Part shown: positions 8,759 through 23,237 of the stretch, in pieces | Layout of the letters: each line of letters starts with the position of its first letter | How positions within the stretch are numbered: position 1 is the stretch's first letter | From: Chitinophagaceae bacterium | GTDB lineage: Bacteria; Bacteroidota; Bacteroidia; Chitinophagales; Chitinophagaceae | Length of the DNA stretch: 35,674 bases | Assembly (NCBI GenBank): GCA_019455085.1 | Contig: JACFNA010000009.1 | Coordinates: forward strand, 1-35,674 | Direction of reading: 5' to 3' | Position numbers and translations under genes: made by a program | The notes under the pieces: model-generated | The model's input: only the letters and a program-made list of their open reading frames with translations | Told to the model about the DNA's origin: nothing | Databases searched by the model: none

Positions 8759-9787
8759 TTATTTCCATACACCCAGCCCTTCACTGCAGTTTGCACAGAT
8801 GTCTATGTTTTTTCTGGACTGCATTAGTTTGGCACGGAAGTCTTTATAGTTCTCATTTTGCCAGATATCTTTCATAGAGTCATTATTAAGGTCTCCCAGT
8901 CTGTGGGTAGCGTCTTTGTCAAAACAGCAGGGTACCACCTTGCCATCCCAGGTAATCACGTTGGCATGCCATAGTTTCCAGCAGTGGTTGGCTCTTTTGT
9001 TTTTGGGTGTGGTTTTCCCGTCTTCAGCTTTCTTGTAGCGGCTGTATTTGTTATTTTCAGGAATCAGGTGGTTAGGATCGTTTTCATAATCATAAACCTG
9101 GGCAGTCTTAAATCTTACTTCGTCCACCCCTACTTTCCTGCCCAATTCTTTTACATCTTCTATCTGGTGCTCGTTGGGCTTCACTACCAGAAACTGGAAA
9201 AATACAAATGGGGTCTTACTTTTTAGTTCTTTTTTCCACTTTACAATGTTTTCGGCTCCCTTGATTACACGGTCGAGCCTGCCTCCTCTGCGGTATTGCT
9301 GATACACTTCCTGCGTAGTGCCGTCGATAGATATGATTAGCCTGTCGAGGCCGCTTTCTACTGTTTTCCTGGCCACCTCATCCGTAAGGTAGTGTGCATT
9401 GGTTGAGGTCGCAGTATAAATTCCTTTGGAATGGGCATAGGCCACCATATCCAGAAAGTTTTTGTTGAGGTAGGGCTCTCCCTGAAAGTAGAAGATCAGG
9501 TAAAGCAGGTGCCGGTGTATCTCGTCAATTGTCTTTTCAAAGAATTGATTATCCAACATGCCTTTGGGGCGGGTAAACTGGCGAAGTCCGCTTGGGCACT
9601 CAGGACAACGCAGGTTGCAGGAGGTAGTAGGCTCAAATGAAATGGAAATTGGCAGCCCCCACTGTATGGGTTTTTTCCGCCATCGGCTCAGATAGTAACT
9701 CGATAATACTTTGGTGCCGTTCCAGATTTTATAGGGAGTCAGTTTACTTAAAAAATTGATACTGTCATGAAAATTTAACTGAGGCAT
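8759..9787 (-). CDS. Radical SAM protein with SPASM domain
   Basis: This is a 342-residue cytoplasmic radical SAM enzyme. The [4Fe-4S] cluster motif CNLRCPEC uses C57, C61 and C64, preceded by ISFEPTTS. The barrel follows, with YFQGEPYLN (the GGEP-equivalent) and LIISIDGTTQEVYQQYR. The C-terminal SPASM region (about 265-342) has several cysteines (NHCWKLW, GKVVPCCFDKD, ICANCSEG) that would bind auxiliary clusters. SPASM enzymes often modify peptides or sugars, but no precursor peptide gene is visible within several hundred bases on either side. The substrate cannot be assigned. A TATCTTTA box (9795-9802) ends only 7 bases before the ATG. Confidence 0.9.
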   Translation of the reverse strand: MPQLNFHDSINFLSKLTPYKIWNGTKVLSSYYLSRWRKKPIQWGLPISISFEPTTSCNLRCPECPSGLRQFTRPKGMLDNQFFEKTIDEIHRHLLYLIFYFQGEPYLNKNFLDMVAYAHSKGIYTATSTNAHYLTDEVARKTVESGLDRLIISIDGTTQEVYQQYRRGGRLDRVIKGAENIVKWKKELKSKTPFVFFQFLVVKPNEHQIEDVKELGRKVGVDEVRFKTAQVYDYENDPNHLIPENNKYSRYKKAEDGKTTPKNKRANHCWKLWHANVITWDGKVVPCCFDKDATHRLGDLNNDSMKDIWQNENYKDFRAKLMQSRKNIDICANCSEGLGVWK

Positions 9788-9794
9788 GATGTTG

Positions 9795-9802
9795 TAAAGA
9801 TA
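9795..9802 (-). promoter_or_regulatory. Candidate -7 box immediately before the radical SAM gene
   Basis: On the minus strand TATCTTTA matches the -7 consensus except for the last base. The predicted transcription start falls at or next to the ATG, so the mRNA may be leaderless. Confidence 0.35.
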
Positions 9803-9872
9803 GACAAGAGGGGTTTTAATAAGAATCGGTCAGCTTTTGAATTTGGGAATTTTTTGTGCCGTAGCCCTTTGC

Positions 9873-10610
9873 TTACGGAATACCATGCGCTCTTTTATAT
9901 GCGTATGAAGTATTAAGGATGTATTGATAGAACTCCTCCAGGGTGCTCTTGCTTGAGAATTCATAAGTAGGGCGGTAAGTCTGGCGATAGTTTTCAAGAT
10001 CGTCGCCCTGCAGCCCGGTAATACGGCTAATAAGCCGGGCATTAAAGCGATAGTTTACATACCCTTCCTCTTCCTGAAGTATCAGTCTGTTTTGGAAGCT
10101 GTTGGCTCGTCTGTTTTTCTTGAACTGAAAGAGTTCCACTATCGATCCCACATCCAGCCCGACTATACCGTCAGGGCTTACGGAGGTTTGAATTTTACCT
10201 TTTGTATTCCCGAAAATCTTTTCATAGCGCTTGCGGTTCTCCAGAGAGTCAAATCTGTAAGTATCAGAAAAAACCACTACTTCTTTCAGGACTTTGTAGG
10301 GAGAGTTTGTCCTGGCGTGCAGGGAAATATCAAATTCATTGGGGTTTGGAATTTGGGAAAGAGCGTATTTCAATGTATTCTTCCCTGCATAGAAGAAATA
10401 AATACTGTCGCCCGGCTGCATATTAATATGATATTGACCGGCAGAATCTGTACGGGTTATTTCTCCGGCGGTGGTAAGTACCAGTACATGCTGCATGCCG
10501 TAGATTTTCGAGGAGTCGAATACGGTACCTGAAACTTCAATCTGCGCAGATACGTTTCGGGAGTTTAGTACCGCTCCCGTAACAAAGAAGAAAAAGACAA
10601 ACCACCTCAT
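9873..10610 (-). CDS. Secreted protein with carboxypeptidase-regulatory-like domain
   Basis: This is a 245-residue exported protein. It has a signal peptide with a very hydrophobic core (MRWFVFFFFVTG, ending near SAQ), then a beta-rich CarboxypepD_reg-like domain (about 23-100) with the usual SGTVFDSSK opening and DSAGQYHINMQPGD strand-turn. The C-terminal half (about 105-245) is charged, helical and without a recognised domain. Such proteins are common in Bacteroidota and resemble the N-terminal region of TonB-dependent receptors, but no receptor gene is adjacent. The function is unknown. The frame extends to a TTG at 10619, but the ATG at 10610 gives the better signal peptide. TAAATTGC (10616-10623) just upstream could be its promoter. 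Confidence 0.75.
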   Translation of the reverse strand: MRWFVFFFFVTGAVLNSRNVSAQIEVSGTVFDSSKIYGMQHVLVLTTAGEITRTDSAGQYHINMQPGDSIYFFYAGKNTLKYALSQIPNPNEFDISLHARTNSPYKVLKEVVVFSDTYRFDSLENRKRYEKIFGNTKGKIQTSVSPDGIVGLDVGSIVELFQFKKNRRANSFQNRLILQEEEGYVNYRFNARLISRITGLQGDDLENYRQTYRPTYEFSSKSTLEEFYQYILNTSYAYKRAHGIP

Positions 10611-11547: not shown

Positions 11548-12804
11548 ATGAGTCAAATTATAAAGCATGCTATCAAGGTAGTTTCTGTATTTTTTATTCT
11601 GGCCTTCCTGATAGCTCCAAACAAGTCGTTCGCTGCAGATGGCGAAGCTCTTTTCAAATCACATTGTGCATCATGCCATAAGCCGGATGCAAAGTATGTA
11701 GGCCCTGAACTTAAAGGTGCGCGTGAGCGTGAGCCTGAGAAGGGTTGGGTGTATAAGTGGGTAAGGAACCCGATTACGATGGTGCAGACTGATCCGTATG
11801 CCAAGAAGCTGCATGAAGAGTATGGCTCCATCATGACCCCTTTCCCGGATCTGACCGATGAAGAGATAGACGCGATTCTGGATTGGGCTGATTCTTATCA
11901 GGCACCGGGCGCTGCGGCTCCGGGTGCGGGAGGTGCAGCGGTGGAAGCACCAAAGTCAGATAATACCCTGTTATATGGTTTGCTGACACTGGTGTTATTG
12001 ATTGTGGCGCTCATACTCCTTCAGGTAAATGGAAGCCTCAGAAAAATGGCGGATGAGTCGGAGGGAATCCCCGGAAAAAAGCCGGTACCCTTCTACAGAA
12101 ATAAAGCATACCTGCTTTTATTTGCAATAGTTCTATTCATTTTCGCAGGTTACTATCTGGTAGAAGGTGCAGTCGGGCTGGGCCGCCAGCAGGGCTATCA
12201 ACCTGAACAGCCAATTTTTTATTCGCATAAGGTACATGCAGGGGTGAATCAGATCAGCTGCCTGTATTGTCATGGAGGTGCACAGGATGGAAAGCATGCC
12301 AATATACCCTCAGTTAATGTTTGTATGAACTGCCACCTTTCTGTTACTGAATATACGGGTGAACCCCTATACCACGATGATGGTACGCAGGTGGATGCAA
12401 ATGCAGAAATTCAGAAATTATATAAATATGCAGGCTTTGATCCCACTACCAAAACTTATGATGAAAAGTCTGCAAAGCCGATTGAATGGGTTAAAATCCA
12501 CAATCTGCCTGACCATGTGTACTTTAATCACGCACAACACGTAAAGGTAGGCCAGGTAGCCTGCCAGACCTGCCACGGTGAAATTCAGAAGATGGACGAG
12601 GTAAGCCAGTTTGCTCCCCTGAGCATGGGCTGGTGTGTGAACTGTCACAGAACTACCAATGTGCAGTTTAATGATGATAAAGGCAATGGTAACCAGTTTT
12701 ACAGCATTTACGAAAAGTTTCACGAAGACATAAAGAACAAAAAGTATGACAGCGTAACTGTAGAAAAGATTGGAGGAACAGAGTGCGCTAAGTGCCACTA
12801 TTAA
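11548..12804 (+). CDS. actA: Alternative complex III subunit A, multiheme cytochrome c with an extra N-terminal monoheme domain
   Basis: ActA carries electrons from the iron-sulfur subunit ActB towards the oxidase. This 418-residue protein has six CXXCH sites. One is in an N-terminal monoheme cytochrome c domain (CASCH 40-44, after a signal-like segment ending near residue 30), and five are in the C-terminal domain (CLYCH 238, CMNCH 259, CQTCH 339, CVNCH 363, CAKCH 413). A proline/alanine linker (118-136) and two hydrophobic helices (about 141-160 and 187-206) separate them. Classical ActA is described as pentaheme, so the N-terminal domain is an addition relative to that form. His-rich FYSHKVHAG and FNHAQHVK segments supply distal ligands as in cytochrome c3/c7 proteins. 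It is the first gene of the actABCDEF operon, 49 bases before actB. Confidence 0.93.
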   Translation: MSQIIKHAIKVVSVFFILAFLIAPNKSFAADGEALFKSHCASCHKPDAKYVGPELKGAREREPEKGWVYKWVRNPITMVQTDPYAKKLHEEYGSIMTPFPDLTDEEIDAILDWADSYQAPGAAAPGAGGAAVEAPKSDNTLLYGLLTLVLLIVALILLQVNGSLRKMADESEGIPGKKPVPFYRNKAYLLLFAIVLFIFAGYYLVEGAVGLGRQQGYQPEQPIFYSHKVHAGVNQISCLYCHGGAQDGKHANIPSVNVCMNCHLSVTEYTGEPLYHDDGTQVDANAEIQKLYKYAGFDPTTKTYDEKSAKPIEWVKIHNLPDHVYFNHAQHVKVGQVACQTCHGEIQKMDEVSQFAPLSMGWCVNCHRTTNVQFNDDKGNGNQFYSIYEKFHEDIKNKKYDSVTVEKIGGTECAKCHY

Positions 12805-12853: not shown

Positions 12854-15800
12854 ATGAGTAATCAGAAATACTGGCAAAATTTTGGAGAGTATCACGACAG
12901 TGCTGCTAATAAAATTATAGCCAAAGATGAATTCAGGGAAGAGCTTCCGTTCGGAGATCTTGCCGGTGAAAATGTATTAAATGCAAAAACACCCAGAAGA
13001 GATTTCCTGAAATATATGGGTTTTAGCACAGCAGCTGCTATTGCGGCAGCCAGTTGCGAAATGCCCGTACACAAAGCGATACCTTACCTGCACAAGCCGG
13101 ATGATGTGATAGCCGGAATTGCCAACTACTACGCTTCCACATATATAAGCGATGGGGATGCAGTGCCTGTGGTGGTAAAACAACGTGAAGGCCGCCCAAT
13201 CAAGATAGAGGGTAATGAACTGAGCAGTCTTACGCTGGGTGGTACCTCAGCTCAGGTGCAGGCATCTGTACTGGATCTTTACGACACACGCAGATTGCGC
13301 TATCCCTTAATAAGCAAGAAAGAAGCAACATTTCAGGCTATCGATAAAGCAATCGATGAAGGAGTGGCTGGTGCTGCCGGCAAGCCTCTGGTGTTGTTGA
13401 CAAGCTCTGTCACTTCGGTAACAGGCAGAGAGATCATTAATCAGTTCCTTCAGAAATATCCCGGAAGCAGGCATGTGCAATACGATGCAGTGTCCTATAG
13501 CGGTATGCTATTGGCCAATCAGGCTTCTTATGGACAAAAGGCTATCCCCTCTTACCACTTTGAAAAAGCAAAAGTGATAGTGAGCCTGGGAGCCGATTTT
13601 CTGGGTACCTGGCTTAGCCCGGTAGCTTTTGCCTCACAATATGCAAGAGGCAGAAGAATAGACGAAAAAAATCCTACCATGAGCCGGCATATCCAGTTTG
13701 AAGGATTCTTCAGTATGACAGGAGCCAATGCCGACGAAAGATATATGCACAAGCCGTCCGAGACTGGGGCAATCGTAAAAGCGTTATTAGGTGCAGTAGG
13801 TGGAAGCACTTCTGCTACCCTGAGCGAAGACCTGAATGCGGCAGTGAAGAAAACCGCAGCCGAGCTGAAGGCTAATAACGGGGCAGCATTGGTTGTTTGC
13901 GGAAGTAATGATCCTAATATTCAGATATTGGTGAATGCCATCAACGAAGCAATTGGGGCCAACGGAACTACTATTGACTGGAGTGCACCGGTTTATTACC
14001 GTCAGGGAATTGACGGCGATATGGCCACATTGGTAAGCGATTTGAATGCAGGGGCAATAGGAGGCTTATTCGTATATGGCGCCAATCCGGTTTATAGCTA
14101 TTATGATAAAGCAAAACTTGTGGACGGAATTAAGAAATGTACGTTCACTGTTTCATATAGCGATAGAATGGATGAAACCACTGAACTCTGTAAGTATGTG
14201 GTTCCTTCCAGCCATTGGTTAGAATGCTGGGGAGATGCAGAATTGTCAAAAGGGACTGTAAGTTCTATCCAGCCGCTGATACATCCATTGTTTAAGACAA
14301 GGCAGTTTGAAGATTCATTGCTGAAGCTGGTTGGAAGTACAGATGATTATCTTACTTATTTCCGTAATTACTGGATAGGTAAACTGGGAGGAGAAAGTAA
14401 TTTCGACAGGTTTATCCAGGATGGTATTATGGAAGACGGAAAGTTACTGACCCGCGCTGCTTTATTGAATCCGAATACCATAGAATCAGGTGTGGCCACA
14501 AGCGCTGAATCGTTTCAGGCAGACAGTACAACCGCTGCTGCAGCACCTGTGCCGGTTGTTGAAAAGAAATTTAGTGCTATTGCCTTCACCGGCAATGTGG
14601 CAGATGCTGCTTCAAAGATCAGTGCCAAGGGGGGCGATACTGAGTTTATCCTCTACCAGAATATTGCTATAGGAACCGGAAACAAAGCTACCAACGCATG
14701 GTTGCAGGAAGTGAGTGACCCAATCACCAAGGCTACCTGGGATAACTACGCAGTAGTATCGCCTGAAATGGGAAAGAAGCTTTTCGGAATTGACATCTTC
14801 AACCCAAGGGATACAGATAAGTTTGAAGTACATCCTGAAAAGCCAGTTGTAAAGATTGTAGCAAATGGCCAGACGATAGAATTGCCGGCGCTTATAGTTC
14901 CGGGAACTCATCCGAATGTAGTGGCGCTTGCGGTAGGATATGGCAGGGAAAGTAATGATGCCTCCAAAACGGCAGAATATATCGGGCCATCAGCCACCGG
15001 AACCGGAAAGAATGTGTATCCGCTGACTACTTTCGATGGCACCTCGGTTTCTTATTACGTAAGTGGTACCATTGAAAATACAGGAAAGGAATTTCCGCTG
15101 GCATTATCACAAACACACAATATTACAGAGGGCAGGCCGGTAGTCAGGGAGCAATCATTAACAGAGTTTATTGCAGACCCCAGGGCTCCTCATCGGGCTG
15201 AAGAGGAAGAACTGGCTCAGTTTGGGAAGGATTATGCAAGAGATGCCACGCTATATCCCACCTTTGCCAAACCGGGTATTAAGTGGGGAATGAGTGTGGA
15301 CCTGAGCGCATGTATCGGATGTTCTGCATGTACAATCGCATGCGTGGCAGAGAATAATATTTCTACTGTAGGTAAGGAAGAAGTAGCCAAGTTTCACGAT
15401 ATGCAATGGATCAGGATTGACCGTTACTATACCGGTGATCCTAAGAATCCGGATGTGATCTTCCAGCCTATGATGTGCCAGCAGTGCGATAACGCACCGT
15501 GCGAAAACGTATGTCCGGTAGCTGCTACCAGCCATAGTAGTGAAGGACTGAACCAGATGATCTATAACAGATGTATCGGTACGAAGTACTGTATGAATAA
15601 CTGCCCGTACAAAGTGCGCCGGTTTAACTGGGCCGACTGGAACGGGGCAGACAGCTTCCCTGATAACCAGAGAGGAATTATCTCCGCCGCAACTACCGAC
15701 CTTGATTCAGACCTTACAAGGATGGTATTGAATCCGGATGTAGTAGTCAGGGCGAGAGGGGTGATGGAAAAATGTACTTTCTGCGTGCAAAGGCTTCAGG

Positions 15801-16069
15801 AAGGTAAGTTGAATGCCAAGAAAGAAAACCGCCCGTTGAGAGACCAGGAAGTGAAGACTGCATGTATGCAGGCGTGCCCAACTCAGGCTATCCAGTTCGG
15901 TAATGTGAATGACCCTGAGAGCAAGATTTCTAAACTCAGAGATAAGGAGCAGAAGAATCGTAAGTTCTATGTGTTGGAGCATCTGCACACCCTGAGCAAT
16001 GTGAATTATCTTACTAAGATCAGGAATACAGACAGAAAAGTATTTGACGGAAACGGTCACGAAGCTTAA
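12854..16069 (+). CDS. actB: Alternative complex III subunit B, molybdopterin-oxidoreductase-like and iron-sulfur protein
   Basis: ActB is a 1071-residue fusion of a molybdopterin-oxidoreductase-like domain (about 75-790), which in this family binds no molybdenum cofactor, and a four-cluster ferredoxin domain (about 805-1030). Iron-sulfur motifs are CIGCSACTIAC (from about 819), CQQCDNAPCENVCP (about 875), CIGTKYCMNNCP (about 907), CTFCVQ (about 974) and ACMQACP (about 1002). A twin-arginine motif (RRDFLKYMGF, R48-R49) with a hydrophobic stretch ending AAASC is preceded by an unusually long 47-residue leader, so it would be exported folded through Tat. C68 could also be a lipid anchor site. 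A proline/alanine-rich insert lies near 555-570. It takes electrons from the quinol sites in ActC/ActF and passes them to ActA. Confidence 0.95.
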   Translation: MSNQKYWQNFGEYHDSAANKIIAKDEFREELPFGDLAGENVLNAKTPRRDFLKYMGFSTAAAIAAASCEMPVHKAIPYLHKPDDVIAGIANYYASTYISDGDAVPVVVKQREGRPIKIEGNELSSLTLGGTSAQVQASVLDLYDTRRLRYPLISKKEATFQAIDKAIDEGVAGAAGKPLVLLTSSVTSVTGREIINQFLQKYPGSRHVQYDAVSYSGMLLANQASYGQKAIPSYHFEKAKVIVSLGADFLGTWLSPVAFASQYARGRRIDEKNPTMSRHIQFEGFFSMTGANADERYMHKPSETGAIVKALLGAVGGSTSATLSEDLNAAVKKTAAELKANNGAALVVCGSNDPNIQILVNAINEAIGANGTTIDWSAPVYYRQGIDGDMATLVSDLNAGAIGGLFVYGANPVYSYYDKAKLVDGIKKCTFTVSYSDRMDETTELCKYVVPSSHWLECWGDAELSKGTVSSIQPLIHPLFKTRQFEDSLLKLVGSTDDYLTYFRNYWIGKLGGESNFDRFIQDGIMEDGKLLTRAALLNPNTIESGVATSAESFQADSTTAAAAPVPVVEKKFSAIAFTGNVADAASKISAKGGDTEFILYQNIAIGTGNKATNAWLQEVSDPITKATWDNYAVVSPEMGKKLFGIDIFNPRDTDKFEVHPEKPVVKIVANGQTIELPALIVPGTHPNVVALAVGYGRESNDASKTAEYIGPSATGTGKNVYPLTTFDGTSVSYYVSGTIENTGKEFPLALSQTHNITEGRPVVREQSLTEFIADPRAPHRAEEEELAQFGKDYARDATLYPTFAKPGIKWGMSVDLSACIGCSACTIACVAENNISTVGKEEVAKFHDMQWIRIDRYYTGDPKNPDVIFQPMMCQQCDNAPCENVCPVAATSHSSEGLNQMIYNRCIGTKYCMNNCPYKVRRFNWADWNGADSFPDNQRGIISAATTDLDSDLTRMVLNPDVVVRARGVMEKCTFCVQRLQEGKLNAKKENRPLRDQEVKTACMQACPTQAIQFGNVNDPESKISKLRDKEQKNRKFYVLEHLHTLSNVNYLTKIRNTDRKVFDGNGHEA

Positions 16070-16125
16070 ATAACAAAAAGAGAATAACGGCCTCATATTG
16101 CCGCAAGCCAAAAAGCGAAAAAAGT

Positions 16126-17580
16126 ATGTCATTATTAAAGTACGAATCAGAATTGCGGGAGCCACTTGTTGATGGTAATAAAACCTATCATCAGGTTACC
16201 GAAGACATTATCAGCCCGATTGAAGCAAAGCCTACCCGGGCATGGTGGATTGGGTTCTCGATCTCCGTGGCCCTGCTTTGTTTTGGCGTGTACTCTGTTT
16301 ATAGAGAAACCGCCTATGGTATCGGCCAGTGGAATATCACCAGAACCGTCGGTTGGGGTTGGGATATTACCAACTTCGTGTGGTGGATTGGTATCGGGCA
16401 TGCCGGAACACTGATATCTGCCATCCTTTTGCTGTTCAGACAGGGATGGCGTACGGGAGTAAACCGCGCAGCAGAAGCCATGACGATTTTTGCAGTTATC
16501 TGTGCCGGACAGTTCCCTATCTTCCACATGGGACGCGTCTGGATGGGCTTCTTTGTATTCCCTTATCCAAATACCCGCGGACCACTGTGGCCCAACTTTA
16601 ACTCTGCACTGCTTTGGGACGTGTTTGCGGTGTCAACTTACTTTACTATTTCGTTACTGTTCTGGTACACCGGACTTCTGCCTGACCTTGCAACCGTGAG
16701 AGACAGAGCGAAGACCAAGTTCCGTAAGATGTTTTATGGACTGGCTTCTTTTGGATGGACAGGTAGCACAAAACACTGGCAGCGTCAGGAAAGCCTTGCA
16801 CTGGTTTTAGCCGGTCTGGCTACTCCGCTGGTACTTTCTGTACACACGATAGTATCCTTTGACTTCGCTACCTCAGTGATACCCGGATGGCATACCACCA
16901 TCTTCCCTCCCTACTTTGTGGCAGGAGCTATCTTCTCAGGATTTGCAATGGTGCAGTCACTGCTGATCATTACCAGAAAAATATTACATCTTGAAGACTA
17001 TATCACCATTGGCCACATTGAGGCAATGAATAAGGTGATTGTACTTACCGGAAGTATTGTGGGTTGTGCCTACCTGACAGAGTTATTCGTAGCATGGTAT
17101 TCAGGAAACCCTTATGAGTGGTGGGCGTTCAGAGAGAACAGGGTGAATATTTTCAGCCCTTATGGCTGGGCTTACTATGGAATGATGTTCTGTAACGTAG
17201 TGTCACCACAGTTGTTCTGGTCAAGAAGGCTTAGAAGGAATGTGATGTTTACGTTCTTCATGTCAATTATTATCAACGTGGGGATGTGGTTTGAGAGATT
17301 TGTAATTATTGTTACTTCTATCTTCCGCGACTTCCTGCCTTCTTCCTGGTCTATTTATTACAGTCCTTCAATCTGGGAAATCGGCTTTTATTTGGGAACA
17401 TTTGGATTGTTCTTCACACTGTACTTCCTGTTTGCCAAGTTCTTCCCTGTAATTGCAGTGGCAGAAATCAAGCATGTGTTGAAGACGAGTGGTGAAAGCT
17501 ATAAGGAAGAAATGGGTAAGATGGAGAGAATGGATACTATGACATTTGTTTCTGAAGAAGTAGGCGAGAGCCATCATTAA
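16126..17580 (+). CDS. actC: Alternative complex III subunit C, NrfD/PsrC-like quinol-binding membrane protein
   Basis: This 484-residue integral membrane protein has about ten transmembrane helices and belongs to the NrfD/PsrC family (polysulfide reductase-type). In the complex it forms one of the two membrane cores and is the main candidate for menaquinol oxidation next to ActB. Characteristic stretches are ITNFVWWIGIGHAGTLISA (second helix), FPIFHMGRVWMGFFVFPYPN and LYFLFAKFFP near the end. The N-terminal 38 residues are soluble and face the cytoplasm. It lies 56 bases after actB and 24 bases before actD, in the same operon. Confidence 0.95.
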   Translation: MSLLKYESELREPLVDGNKTYHQVTEDIISPIEAKPTRAWWIGFSISVALLCFGVYSVYRETAYGIGQWNITRTVGWGWDITNFVWWIGIGHAGTLISAILLLFRQGWRTGVNRAAEAMTIFAVICAGQFPIFHMGRVWMGFFVFPYPNTRGPLWPNFNSALLWDVFAVSTYFTISLLFWYTGLLPDLATVRDRAKTKFRKMFYGLASFGWTGSTKHWQRQESLALVLAGLATPLVLSVHTIVSFDFATSVIPGWHTTIFPPYFVAGAIFSGFAMVQSLLIITRKILHLEDYITIGHIEAMNKVIVLTGSIVGCAYLTELFVAWYSGNPYEWWAFRENRVNIFSPYGWAYYGMMFCNVVSPQLFWSRRLRRNVMFTFFMSIIINVGMWFERFVIIVTSIFRDFLPSSWSIYYSPSIWEIGFYLGTFGLFFTLYFLFAKFFPVIAVAEIKHVLKTSGESYKEEMGKMERMDTMTFVSEEVGESHH

Positions 17581-17604: not shown

Positions 17605-18189
17605 ATGATTAAGTCATTTGTAGTCGGAACTTTTGAAGATGAAAAAGTATTGTTCCCTGCAGTAAAGCATGTGAGGAAAGCAGGCCTTAAGCTACACGAT
17701 GTGTACACACCTTATCCCGTGCATGGCCTTGATAAAGCTATGGGGCTGAGAGAAACAAGTCTGCACACCGCAGGATTCATCTATGGCCTTATGGGTACAA
17801 TGATTGCGATAGGCGGTATGGGATGGATTTTTGCTGTGGACTGGCCATTGAATTTCGGTGGTAAGCCTCACTTCCCTTTGCCTGCATATATACCGATCAC
17901 CTTTGAGCTTACTGTATTGCTATCTGGTGTAGGGATGGTGCTTACCTATTGTTATCTCAATCAGATGATGCCGGGTGTGAAAAAACACCATTTCAGCCCG
18001 AGGGCAACTGATGATGCTTTCATTATGGTTATAGAGCTGACAGGCAAGTCAAATGAAGAAGAAATTAAGAAGTTTTTAGCTGATAACGGAGCGATAGAGA
18101 TTAATACACAGGTAGCTGAAAAAGGATGGTGGTTTGGCCGCTATGACCGAGAGCAAACGCTGTATCGTTCAGACGAGGTGTTAGCATAA
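17605..18189 (+). CDS. actD: Alternative complex III subunit D (DUF3341)
   Basis: This 194-residue protein has a cytoplasmic N-terminal domain (about 1-55, ferredoxin-like in known structures), two transmembrane helices (about 57-82 and 98-120) and a C-terminal soluble domain (about 130-194). Motifs typical of DUF3341 are DVYTPYPVHGLDKAMG and the GGKPHFPLPAYIPITFE loop (split here as GGKPHFPLP and AYIPITFE). It is a structural subunit without a cofactor. The start follows an A-rich stretch with AAAGAG about 8 bases before the ATG. Confidence 0.93.
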   Translation: MIKSFVVGTFEDEKVLFPAVKHVRKAGLKLHDVYTPYPVHGLDKAMGLRETSLHTAGFIYGLMGTMIAIGGMGWIFAVDWPLNFGGKPHFPLPAYIPITFELTVLLSGVGMVLTYCYLNQMMPGVKKHHFSPRATDDAFIMVIELTGKSNEEEIKKFLADNGAIEINTQVAEKGWWFGRYDREQTLYRSDEVLA

Positions 18190-18220: not shown

Positions 18221-18844
18221 ATGAAAAAAAATAAAATCTTGTTATTTGTGCTGATCGCAGCAGGTGGTTTTACCGCATTGCAGAGCTGCGGCGACAAGCG
18301 TTCACCGGGCAGAACGTATATGCCTGATATGCAGTATAGCAGGGCATACGAAGCCTATACTCCTAATAGCCTGGATAAGGAGGGCATTAATTACATTCCG
18401 CAGCCTGTGGAAGGTACAATTCGCCGCGGAGACCTGCTTCCTTATAAGGTGCCGAATACGCCTGAGGGTTATGTGCAGAGCGCCCAGGTAAAGAATCCGC
18501 TTCCTCTTCCTTTGACGAGTGCCCAGATGAGCGAAGCTCAGAGGTTATATAACATCAATTGTGCCATCTGCCATGGAGCAAAGATGGATGCCCAGGGGCC
18601 GCTGGCAACAGGTGCCAAAGTGCCGGCAGTGGCTAACCTTACTACTAAGGTGTATGTGGATATGCCGGAGGGCACCATGTTTCACTCAATTACATACGGT
18701 AAAGGAAATATGGGCAGCTATGCTTCTCAGTTGACAAGGGAAGAGAGATGGATGGTTGTTGAATACGTTAAAAGAACACAATTAGGAGGTGCGGCGGCAC
18801 CAGCCCCTGCTGCTGAAGCTGCCCCCGCTACTGAAAACAAATAA
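18221..18844 (+). CDS. actE: Alternative complex III subunit E, monoheme cytochrome c lipoprotein
   Basis: This 207-residue protein has a lipoprotein signal (lipobox ending at C23, LQSCG) and one cytochrome c domain with CAICH at 114-118. The likely axial methionine is M164 in GKGNMGSYA. In alternative complex III the monoheme subunit sits at the periplasmic face and may hand electrons to the oxidase. The C-terminus is an alanine/proline-rich tail (about 187-203). A purine-rich GGAAGAAGAGG directly before the ATG is one of the few Shine-Dalgarno-like sites in the window. Confidence 0.93.
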   Translation: MKKNKILLFVLIAAGGFTALQSCGDKRSPGRTYMPDMQYSRAYEAYTPNSLDKEGINYIPQPVEGTIRRGDLLPYKVPNTPEGYVQSAQVKNPLPLPLTSAQMSEAQRLYNINCAICHGAKMDAQGPLATGAKVPAVANLTTKVYVDMPEGTMFHSITYGKGNMGSYASQLTREERWMVVEYVKRTQLGGAAAPAPAAEAAPATENK

Positions 18845-18869: not shown

Positions 18870-20105
18870 ATGGATAACAGATATGTGACACCAGCTGCTT
18901 ACAAAAAGTCGTACATGGCCTTTATAGGAATCGGAGTGCTTACGCTGATACTGGGCTTTGTATTCCTGAATCCGTTTGCCGGAGCACATGGTGACAACGT
19001 GAATAGTACCCGTTTTTGGGCAGGCCTGTTACAAAACAGTACTTACTTTCTGATGATCGTAAATGTGGCGCTGTTCTTTATTGTAATTTCCACACTCGCA
19101 ATGGGTGGCTGGCAAATAGCTTTCAGAAGGGTGAACGAAGCCATCGCATCGTTGGTGCCTATTATGGCCGTGCTCACGTTTATTATTTTGTTGTGTATAA
19201 TACTTGGAAACAGGTCAGATATTTACCACTGGCTCGATAAAGAGGCAGTAGCACATGATGAATTATTAAATCATAAAAAAGGGTTTCTGAACTCATGGGT
19301 ATTTCTGGGATTCTCTTTTGTAGTGCTGTTCCTGTGGTCATATATTGGAAAGAAAATAAACAAATTGAGCCTGGAGTCTGATGAAATGGGCCCGATGGAT
19401 TTTGATACAGCGAAGAAATGGACCGCAAAAAATATGACCTGGTCTGCATACTATATTGTATTGTATTTGCTATCTGTAGCTTCTATCCTGCCCTGGTTGT
19501 GGCTGATGAGTATAGATCCGCATTGGTACAGCACAATGTATAGCTGGTACACATTTGCGAGTACTTTTGTAGCCGGCATAGCTTTGATGACGTTGTTTGT
19601 AGTGTACTTTAAGAACCAGGGTCAGTTAGAATTTGTAAACAAAGAACACTTGCAGGATCTGGGTAAGTTTATGTTTGCATTCTCTATTTTTTGGACTTAT
19701 CTGTGGTTTGATCAGTTTATGCTGATATGGTATGGAAATATTCCTGAGGAGACAGTGTACTTCAAGCCCAGATTACAGGGAATGTATAAAGGAATTTTTT
19801 ATCTGAACCTGATTATCAACTTTGTGGCGCCTTTCCTGATTTTCATGAAGGCTGCTGCAAAGAGGAATTACACAATCGTTACCTTTGTGTCGATAATAAT
19901 TATATTTGGTCACTGGATCGACTTTTACCAGATGGTGATGCCGGGCACTGTATATAACAATCCACACCTGAGCTGGTTTGAATTTGGAATAGCGCTCGGA
20001 TTTGTGGGGGTTATCATGTGGGGTGTAAGCCGGTTTGCTTCCAGGACGCCAATGACTGCGATGAACAATCCTTTCCTCAAGGAGAGTATTATTCACCACG
20101 TATAA
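18870..20105 (+). CDS. actF: Alternative complex III subunit F, ActC-related membrane protein
   Basis: This is a 411-residue membrane protein with about ten transmembrane helices, distantly related to ActC and NrfD-like proteins. In the complex it forms the second membrane core and is proposed to take part in quinol binding or proton conduction. Visible stretches are FWAGLLQNSTYFLMIVNVA near the second helix, a charged loop (KKINKLSLESDEMGPMD), FMFAFSIFWTYLWFDQFMLIWYGNIPEE (in two parts) and the end GVSRFASRTPM. It is the last act gene. A 231-base gap follows before coxB. Confidence 0.93.
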   Translation: MDNRYVTPAAYKKSYMAFIGIGVLTLILGFVFLNPFAGAHGDNVNSTRFWAGLLQNSTYFLMIVNVALFFIVISTLAMGGWQIAFRRVNEAIASLVPIMAVLTFIILLCIILGNRSDIYHWLDKEAVAHDELLNHKKGFLNSWVFLGFSFVVLFLWSYIGKKINKLSLESDEMGPMDFDTAKKWTAKNMTWSAYYIVLYLLSVASILPWLWLMSIDPHWYSTMYSWYTFASTFVAGIALMTLFVVYFKNQGQLEFVNKEHLQDLGKFMFAFSIFWTYLWFDQFMLIWYGNIPEETVYFKPRLQGMYKGIFYLNLIINFVAPFLIFMKAAAKRNYTIVTFVSIIIIFGHWIDFYQMVMPGTVYNNPHLSWFEFGIALGFVGVIMWGVSRFASRTPMTAMNNPFLKESIIHHV

Positions 20106-20336: not shown

Positions 20337-21395
20337 ATGGAAACATTTTTTCTAATTGCCATTGTACTGCTCATTTTCCTCGTAATCTTCCAAATCTCTA
20401 AAGCGAGTGAATACGTTAGTGTGTTAAAGGGAGAGGAAAAGGCAATGAGGCAGAGTAATAAGATCAATGGATTCTTAATGATTGCATTCCTGATCCTGGG
20501 ATTGATAGGTGTTTGGTATTGCAATAAATTATTTTATCCGGGAAACCTGTTTTCCTGGGGGGCTGCCTCTGAAGAGGGCCTGATTATCGATAAGATGATG
20601 TGGACTGTGATCTACATAACAGGATTTGTATTTTTTGCTACCCAGATATTACTCTTTGTCTTTGCCTATAAGTATCAGTATAGTGATAAGAGAAAAGCGC
20701 TCTATTATCCACACAACAATACTTTGGAGTTTATCTGGACATCCGTGCCTGCAATTACGCTTACTATCCTGATTATTATAGGATTAAAACACTGGTTCAA
20801 ATTTACCGGAGATGCCCCTAAAGGCTCTCAGATTGTAGAAATTACCGGGCATCAGTTTGCATGGGAAATGCGTTATCCCGGTAAGGATGGCGTACTCGGC
20901 AGAAAGAATTTTAAACTCACTGATGCTGCGAAAGGCAATCCGCTGGGGATTGACTGGAAAGATAAGGCAAGCAGAGACGATGTGCATGTGCCCACTACTA
21001 TGTACGTAGTGGTGAATAAACCGGTGAAACTGGTAATCAACTCACAGGACGTAGTGCATGATGTGGGTCTTCCTGCCTTCAGGCTTAAGATGGATGCTGT
21101 TCCCGGAATGCCTACCACTTTGTTCTTTACTCCTATCTATACCACAGAGCAGATGAAAGAGAAGACCGGTAACCCGGATTTCGAATATGAAATTGTATGC
21201 GACCAGCTTTGTGGTAAAGGACACTTCAGTATGAAGGGGATTGTGAAGGTGGTGACTCAGGTTGAGTACAATGCCTGGTTCAGGAATCAGAAATCAGCAT
21301 TTGCAAGAGCCCAGGAAGCAGCACTTTCGGCTATGAACGAAGGTGAGGCACCGGCTAAGGTGGATACACAGAAAGACCTGGCATTAGAAAATTAA
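20337..21395 (+). CDS. coxB: Cytochrome c oxidase subunit II (CuA)
   Basis: Subunit II accepts electrons through the binuclear CuA centre. The 352-residue protein has an extended N-terminal part with about four hydrophobic segments (1-20, 45-62, 88-110, 132-151), two more than the classical form. The periplasmic cupredoxin domain follows (about 163-315). CuA ligands are visible: H241 in VVHDVGLP, and C288, C292, H296 and M299 in CDQLCGKGHFSM. No heme motif is fused at the C-terminus, so electrons must arrive from ActA/ActE or a separate cytochrome. The C-terminal tail (315-352) is charged. It is followed by coxA after 27 bases. Confidence 0.95.
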   Translation: METFFLIAIVLLIFLVIFQISKASEYVSVLKGEEKAMRQSNKINGFLMIAFLILGLIGVWYCNKLFYPGNLFSWGAASEEGLIIDKMMWTVIYITGFVFFATQILLFVFAYKYQYSDKRKALYYPHNNTLEFIWTSVPAITLTILIIIGLKHWFKFTGDAPKGSQIVEITGHQFAWEMRYPGKDGVLGRKNFKLTDAAKGNPLGIDWKDKASRDDVHVPTTMYVVVNKPVKLVINSQDVVHDVGLPAFRLKMDAVPGMPTTLFFTPIYTTEQMKEKTGNPDFEYEIVCDQLCGKGHFSMKGIVKVVTQVEYNAWFRNQKSAFARAQEAALSAMNEGEAPAKVDTQKDLALEN

Positions 21396-21422: not shown

Positions 21423-23237
21423 ATGACAAATGAAGAAGCTCTTCAACACCAAACACAGGTAGCGCATGGTGCTGCGGTGGCCGCACATGTGGCTCACCAC
21501 AAGCAATCATTCATTACCAAATACATTTTCAGTCAAGACCACAAGATAATCTCAAGACAGTTTTTGATAACAGGAATTATCTGGGCCGTGATAGGCGGAT
21601 TTTTCTCTGTCCTGTTTAGAATGCAATTAGGGTTTCCTGATCAGACTTTCCCCTGGCTCGAAGATATTTTTGGAAAGTGGGCAGAAGGTGGTAGAATCAG
21701 TCAGGATTTGTATTATACGTTAGTGACGATGCATGGTACCATTCTGGTATTCTTTGTTTTGACAGCCGGGCTGAGTGGCACATTCTCAAACTTTCTGATA
21801 CCACTGCAGGTAGGAGCACGTGATATGGCATCACCATTTGTAAATATGTTGTCATACTGGTTCTTCTTTGCAGCTTCTGTAGTGATGTTCTCAAGCTTGT
21901 TTGTTTCTACCGGAGGTTCCAGTGTAGGCTGGACATTCTATCCTCCGCTAAGTGCGTTGGGAGATGCCGCGGAAGGGGCGAAAACGGGTATGGACCTATG
22001 GCTTATAAGTATATTTCTATTTATAGTATCTCAATTATTGGGAGGGCTGAACTATGTGGTGACTATTATTAACATGAGAACTAAAGGTATGTTCATGACA
22101 AGGTTGCCATTGACAATCTGGTCGTTCATGTTTACTGCAATTCTGGGTATTTTGACATTCCCCGTTTTGTTGTCGGCTGTAGTGCTGCTGATGTTTGACC
22201 GCCATTTAGGCACCAGTTTCTTCCTCAGTGATATTGTAATTCAGGGTAAGATTTTACCAAATGAAGGCGGTAGCCCGATTTTGTTCCAGCACTTGTTCTG
22301 GTTCCTTGGGCACCCTGAGGTATATATTGTGGCATTACCTGCTATGGGCATTACCTCGGAAGTGGTTTCCACTAACTCGCGTAAACCAATCTTTGGTTAT
22401 ATGGCGATGGTGGGGTCCTTCTTTGCCATATCCACATTGTCTATGATTGTGTGGGCGCACCACATGTTTGTGTCAGGGATGAATCCTTTCCTGGGATCTG
22501 TATTTACATTGTTTACCCTGTTGATTGCAGTGCCGTCAGCCATTAAAGTATTTAACTGGTTGACAACACTCTGGCGAGGGAACATCATATTTACGCCGGC
22601 GATGCTTTTCTCTATCGGATTTGTGAGCTTGTTTATTTCAGGAGGCCTTACGGGGATCTGGCTCGGTAATGCCGCGATAGATATGCACATTCACGATACC
22701 TACTTCAACATTGCCCACTTCCACCTGGTAATGGGTGTGGCATCGATGTTTGGTATGTTCGCAGGTGTATATCACTGGTTCCCTAAAATGTTTGGCCGGT
22801 TCATGAATAAGACACTCGGGTATATCCACTTCTGGATTACAATCGTATGTGCCTACCTGATATTCTGGCCGATGCACTACGAAGGTATTGCGGGTATGCC
22901 TCGTCGTTACTATGATTACAGCAACTGGGAATCATTCAAGATGTTTGAGGGGCTTAACACCTTTATCGGCTATGTGGTAATTATTGTTTTCGCAACACAG
23001 TTCCTGTTTATTTTCAACTTCTTCTATTCTATTTATAAGGGCAGGAAGATGACCGAAAGCAACAAGAATCCGTGGAAAGCTACTACGCTTGAATGGACAA
23101 CTCCTCCATTACCCGGACACGGTAACTGGGAGGGTGAGATACCTGAAGTACACCGCTGGGCTTATGATTACAGTAAGGGAGACAGAGATTTCATACCTCA
23201 AACAGAGCCAATAGGCGAAGATGAGGGCGAACACTAA
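21423..23237 (+). CDS. coxA: Cytochrome c oxidase subunit I, A1-type haem-copper oxidase
   Basis: This is the catalytic subunit reducing O2 to water and pumping protons. The 604-residue protein has twelve or more helices. Metal ligands are visible: H104 (TMHGT) for low-spin heme a, H297 in GHPEVY and H346/H347 (WAHHMF) for CuB, H432 for heme a3 and H434 for heme a (AHFHLVMG). E299 and Y301 in GHPEVY mark an A1-type enzyme: the glutamate of the D channel and the tyrosine cross-linked to the CuB histidine. The first 30 residues are His/Ala-rich and cytoplasmic. The C-terminal tail (about 540-604) is long and charged. A hairpin with flanking A and T runs follows the gene. Confidence 0.96.
   Translation: MTNEEALQHQTQVAHGAAVAAHVAHHKQSFITKYIFSQDHKIISRQFLITGIIWAVIGGFFSVLFRMQLGFPDQTFPWLEDIFGKWAEGGRISQDLYYTLVTMHGTILVFFVLTAGLSGTFSNFLIPLQVGARDMASPFVNMLSYWFFFAASVVMFSSLFVSTGGSSVGWTFYPPLSALGDAAEGAKTGMDLWLISIFLFIVSQLLGGLNYVVTIINMRTKGMFMTRLPLTIWSFMFTAILGILTFPVLLSAVVLLMFDRHLGTSFFLSDIVIQGKILPNEGGSPILFQHLFWFLGHPEVYIVALPAMGITSEVVSTNSRKPIFGYMAMVGSFFAISTLSMIVWAHHMFVSGMNPFLGSVFTLFTLLIAVPSAIKVFNWLTTLWRGNIIFTPAMLFSIGFVSLFISGGLTGIWLGNAAIDMHIHDTYFNIAHFHLVMGVASMFGMFAGVYHWFPKMFGRFMNKTLGYIHFWITIVCAYLIFWPMHYEGIAGMPRRYYDYSNWESFKMFEGLNTFIGYVVIIVFATQFLFIFNFFYSIYKGRKMTESNKNPWKATTLEWTTPPLPGHGNWEGEIPEVHRWAYDYSKGDRDFIPQTEPIGEDEGEH

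Follow-up and report, generated by a model that had tools for sequence, protein, structure and literature searches.

What a sixth heme at the N-terminus of ActA, the multiheme cytochrome c subunit of alternative complex III, is for, and which terminal oxidase it serves, is the question raised by a contig of a Chitinophagaceae bacterium (Bacteroidota, class Bacteroidia in GTDB; JACFNA010000009.1, assembly GCA_019455085.1). The 35,674 nt analysed, hereafter the window, belong to a draft genome of 3.48 Mb and harbored an open reading frame (ORF; 11548..12804, forward strand) of 418 amino acids, identified as actA by translation to its stop codon, by its count of CXXCH motifs and by a phmmer match to the solved chain 6btm_A. 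This ORF encodes a six-heme ActA with the architecture of the Flavobacterium johnsoniae protein, whose N-terminal domain probably ferries electrons to an oxidase, here most likely to the CuA site of the heme-less oxidase subunit II (CoxB).

A motif scan of the ActA ORF revealed six CXXCH motifs, at residues 40 (CASCH, 40-44), 238, 259, 339, 363 and 413. In 2000 shuffled versions of the protein the mean number of motifs was 0.0105 and never more than one was found, ruling out six motifs by chance. The order of the protein is a signal-peptide-like stretch (residues 4-22, by hydropathy), a monoheme cytochrome c domain (residues ~29-116; 11632..11895, forward strand), a linker of about 23 residues rich in P, A and G (11896..11964, forward), two hydrophobic membrane helices (~140-158 and ~187-205) with the loop between them (11965..12162, forward), and the five-heme domain typical of ActA (12181..12801, forward), delimited by its motifs and by alignment. 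Pfam Cytochrom_C matched residues 29-113 above its cut-off (40.1 bits), and Met96, invariant in all 18 aligned ActA proteins, is likely the axial ligand of the N-terminal heme. Furthermore, the C and H columns of the motifs in the five-heme domain were all invariant in 24 aligned sequences. Motif scan, Pfam and hydropathy agreed on the domain order that the first-pass annotation had described. The AlphaFold2 model, computed without hemes from an alignment of 18 rows, predicted the N-terminal fold with high confidence (mean pLDDT, the per-residue confidence, of 80-92 per ten-residue block across residues 31-120) and a disordered linker (pLDDT below 50 at residues 121-137), and placed helices at residues 140-171 and 186-214; its five-heme part was poorly modelled and unreliable (overall pLDDT 60, predicted template modelling score 0.31).

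The same annotation had taken the N-terminal domain for an unusual addition, and a survey of the phylum was used to evaluate this. From 392 genomes drawn, 315 matched; among the matches listed, those of 99 of the 100 matched genomes of the window's class started at or before residue 31, and the match of the remaining one (G107) started at residue 184, yet its ORF has two N-terminal motifs. Heme number was scored by CXXCH counts, as an iterated profile of the N-terminal domain drifted to all ActA and was unusable. ActA was read in stretches from 60 of the 315 matched genomes and in the window. Six motifs were counted in 37 of the 39 class loci (window included) and seven in the other two, and exactly five in all 22 loci of other classes. 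A further 80 named loci, all with Bacteroidetes-group names, gave six motifs in 77, seven in one and five in two; in the latter two the contig ends inside actA, and all 78 uncut genes carry the N-terminal domain. The N-terminal sixth heme is thus normal for the window's class and not for the whole phylum. As all 39 class loci carry the domain, the view that it is unusual within the class was ruled out; the domain is also present in the solved complex 6btm. It can be called extra relative to the Rhodothermus-type ActA, not relative to the window's own class, and the proviso that it might be standard in all Bacteroidota ActA holds at the level of the class and fails at that of the phylum, given the 22 five-heme loci of other classes.

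Under the proposed mechanism, electrons from menaquinol would reach the five-heme wire of ActA by way of the iron-sulfur clusters in ActB. The monoheme domain at the N-terminus, tethered on the periplasmic side by a short flexible linker that a membrane helix anchors, would load electrons from ActA or from the monoheme subunit ActE and pass them on to the oxidase, in the window most probably to CuA of the adjacent heme-less CoxB. For F. johnsoniae, a supercomplex with cytochrome aa3 has been proposed in which the sixth heme of ActA, borne by an N-terminal, mobile, membrane-anchored domain, may act as the shuttle to CuA (PMC8552683). According to the same paper, deletion of actA abolished aa3 activity, and deletion of actE left it unimpaired. 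Delivery to CuA in the window organism is what we infer.

The window's coxB (20337..21395, forward; Pfam COX2) encodes a protein with the CuA-like motif CDQLCGKGHFSM, which matched TIGR02866 below the cut-off of that model. As the first-pass annotation had stated, it has no fused heme, the motif scan having found no CXXCH in the ORF. The same held for every locus with a CoxB in the fetched stretch, both in the class (34/34; five of the 39 loci had no CoxB in the stretch) and among the named loci (70/70; ten of 80 without CoxB). Twelve of the 22 loci of other classes yielded a CoxB, five with a heme motif and seven without. Six-heme ActA is therefore accompanied by heme-less CoxB, which is also seen beside five-heme ActA. 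Two observations weigh against the proposed delivery to CuA. One is that short heme-less CoxB accompanied five-heme ActA in 7 of those 12 loci, so that the inverse pairing is not strict; in six of the seven the cluster holds a further monoheme ORF. The other comes from a single family, in whose eight genomes the six-heme ActA is intact and no CoxB was found.

This family (f4, perhaps Weeksellaceae; loci L046-L049 and L250-L257) encodes full-length ActA with six motifs and Met at the expected place in 8/8 genomes. A tblastn search with the window CoxB gave no match in four of four genomes, PF00116 gave none in 8/8, and TIGR02866 gave none in 7/8, the eighth yielding a weak match to a 670-aa ORF of the size of NosZ (nitrous-oxide reductase). 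In the same search, TIGR02866 matched all 72 other class genomes (80 of the 100 class genomes were tested). Among the COX1-family matches in f4 are 15 ORFs, 754-785 aa long, that each carry a single CXXCH, and all three tested scored above the curated cut-off for fused cbb3 subunit I/II. Since f4 keeps the domain with no CoxB found, the domain cannot serve CuA alone, and the acceptor in f4 is likely a cbb3 oxidase. There is accordingly something close to an even chance that the tethered domain donates, as a general-purpose carrier, to whichever oxidase is present, cbb3 included, with CuA as one acceptor among others; this would widen the proposed delivery to CuA and not exclude it. It is tempered by the f4 act clusters themselves, where no CoxA or CoxB match lay within the fetched 20 kb at 4/4 loci; gene order there ties no oxidase to the complex, and ActE could be the donor. 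We put forward, a little more tentatively still, that the N-terminal heme domain acts as a tethered carrier that is interchangeable and not dedicated to CuA, feeding cbb3 directly in f4 and being tandem-duplicated to two shuttles in some flavobacteria. The tethered shuttle to CuA envisaged by the first-pass annotation keeps its footing in the published F. johnsoniae model and in the fit of the heme-less CoxB, and its strict link to CuA is too narrow.

ActE would be the main oxidase donor, and the N-terminal domain would feed another acceptor, in an alternative that draws on the terminal heme which ActE bears in Rhodothermus (PMC5928083) and on the ActE-type ORF found in 39 of the 39 class loci read; it is unlikely, given that aa3 activity in F. 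johnsoniae survives the loss of actE. That the domain is a relic or a structural element without electron transfer is very improbable, with its CXXCH kept in 39/39 class loci, Met96 in 18/18 aligned proteins, and the domain duplicated, not lost, in three loci. The delivery of electrons by the tethered domain to an oxidase, in the window most likely to CuA, is therefore retained as the preferred reading.

The three duplications are seven-CXXCH genes at 14924-16453 (reverse strand) of L056, 15320-16996 (reverse) of L057 and 9047-10579 (forward) of L163, the last from an uncultured Flavobacteriaceae; they account for the two seven-heme ActA among the 39 class loci and the one among the 80 named loci. 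In each, two tandem N-terminal monoheme domains precede the membrane helices. In a tree of 77 domains, the duplicated domains grouped at 93% with the single domains of one f5 locus of the same family and of four f4 loci, and because of this grouping the duplications look lineage-specific. The ActE domains split from all others with 84% bootstrap, so that an origin of the N-terminal domain from ActE is unsupported. Deep support among N-terminal, NosZ-type and CoxB domains was weak (31-63%), and the tree does not settle the sister group of the N-terminal domain.

Relatives of the domain also occur outside the class, where 12 of 21 genomes matched the N-terminal domain alone, with 22 matches in total. 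Four small stand-alone relatives showed 42, 38, 38 and 33% identity to it, and a gene for a Sec-dependent NosZ adjoined the relative in all four contexts examined. These small cytochromes share the CXXCH...GP...R pattern and a Met near the end with the ActA domain, and differ from it in being lipoprotein-like proteins of their own, with no fusion to ActA; judging from gene order, they may donate electrons to NosZ. The C-terminal part of this NosZ matched the CoxB model, and the gene order gives a hint that acceptors of the CuA type are served by the domain family. In addition, N-domain-related cytochromes of ~290-310 aa were observed roughly 10 kb upstream of the genes for five-heme ActA in four loci of other classes (L193, L194, L197, L199), those of L193, L194 and L197 having two heme motifs each in the ORFs read.

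The window genome itself encodes other small c-type cytochromes, and the replacement of a soluble cytochrome c by the tethered domain may be suggested at most. Among them is a lipoprotein-like cytochrome near a contig end (L214, contig C334, 6997-7464), which shares 35% identity with the N-terminal domain of ActA and whose relatives elsewhere adjoin NosZ. A different respiratory module was identified on contig C225 (L211, 2306-4988 and 5773-7761). It begins with a second protein of the CoxB type, which has a CuA-like motif and carries a fused CXXCH of its own; next come a large membrane ORF and an ORF of 662 aa that matched cytochrome b and contains ferredoxin-like cysteines. A further CoxB-like match, with one internal stop codon, lies at G000:C93:6748-7308.

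The genes around actA, all on the forward strand, complete the set expected of alternative complex III, namely multiheme ActA, iron-sulfur ActB, NrfD-like ActC and ActF, ActD and monoheme ActE. These are actB, encoding the molybdopterin-like and iron-sulfur subunit (12854..16069; Pfam Fer4 and Molybdopterin), actC, encoding an NrfD-like membrane subunit (16126..17580; Pfam NrfD), actD (17605..18189; Pfam ActD, 197 bits), and actE, encoding a lipoprotein-like monoheme cytochrome c (18221..18844; Pfam and motif scan). The single CXXCH of ActE (CAICH at 114) brings the complex to seven c-heme motifs, in agreement with the first-pass count. A likely actF, for a second NrfD-like membrane subunit (18870..20105), was assigned by its position and hydrophobic sequence, having no Pfam match; its name presumes the gene order that we take to be that of the published act cluster. 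Downstream of coxB lies coxA, for oxidase subunit I (21423..23237; Pfam COX1, 470 bits), followed by a UbiA-family gene, two COX3 genes, a COX4-like gene and a SCO1 gene.

The six-heme architecture and the tethered-shuttle idea are already published for F. johnsoniae, and the window repeats both; its value is as part of a natural data set. Because the domain is present throughout the class, duplicated in tandem in a few flavobacteria and kept in genomes where no CuA subunit was found, two questions become accessible to tests: which oxidases can be served by a tethered cytochrome, and whether alternative complex III can feed a cbb3 oxidase without a soluble carrier. The seven-heme variants, the CuA-less family f4 and the NosZ-side stand-alone relatives go beyond the published case.

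Alignment with solved ActA chains, which the first-pass annotation had suggested, separated two types. The short chains 6f0k, 6lod and 8k9e, presumably from Rhodothermus marinus, Roseiflexus and Chloroflexus, share the five-heme domain with the window protein and differ in having 211-226 residues, matching from residue 188 of the window protein at the earliest and thus having no N-terminal heme domain. In R. marinus the acceptor is a caa3 oxidase with its own heme domain, and the extra domain of F. johnsoniae ActA appears to stand in for the heme domain that caa3 bears on its subunit II, according to PMC5928083. A literature search aimed at the sixth ActA heme gave only PMC8552683; the accessible parts of two reviews (PMC8286838, PMC8076601) added nothing on the N-terminal domain, and nothing to the point on a link between ActA and cbb3 was found in the texts accessible to us. 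Among solved chains, the best relative of the window's ActA is chain A of 6btm, the 'Alternative Complex III subunit A' of F. johnsoniae (333.5 bits across ActA residues 30-418). Compared with it, the window protein is divergent in sequence, with small gaps in the linker and no mechanistic difference seen. The two proteins align end to end, from the monoheme domain at the N-terminus through linker and membrane anchor to the five-heme domain, and, as in F. johnsoniae, the monoheme domain before the membrane anchor is accompanied in the window by an oxidase, putatively of the aa3 type, with a heme-less subunit II.
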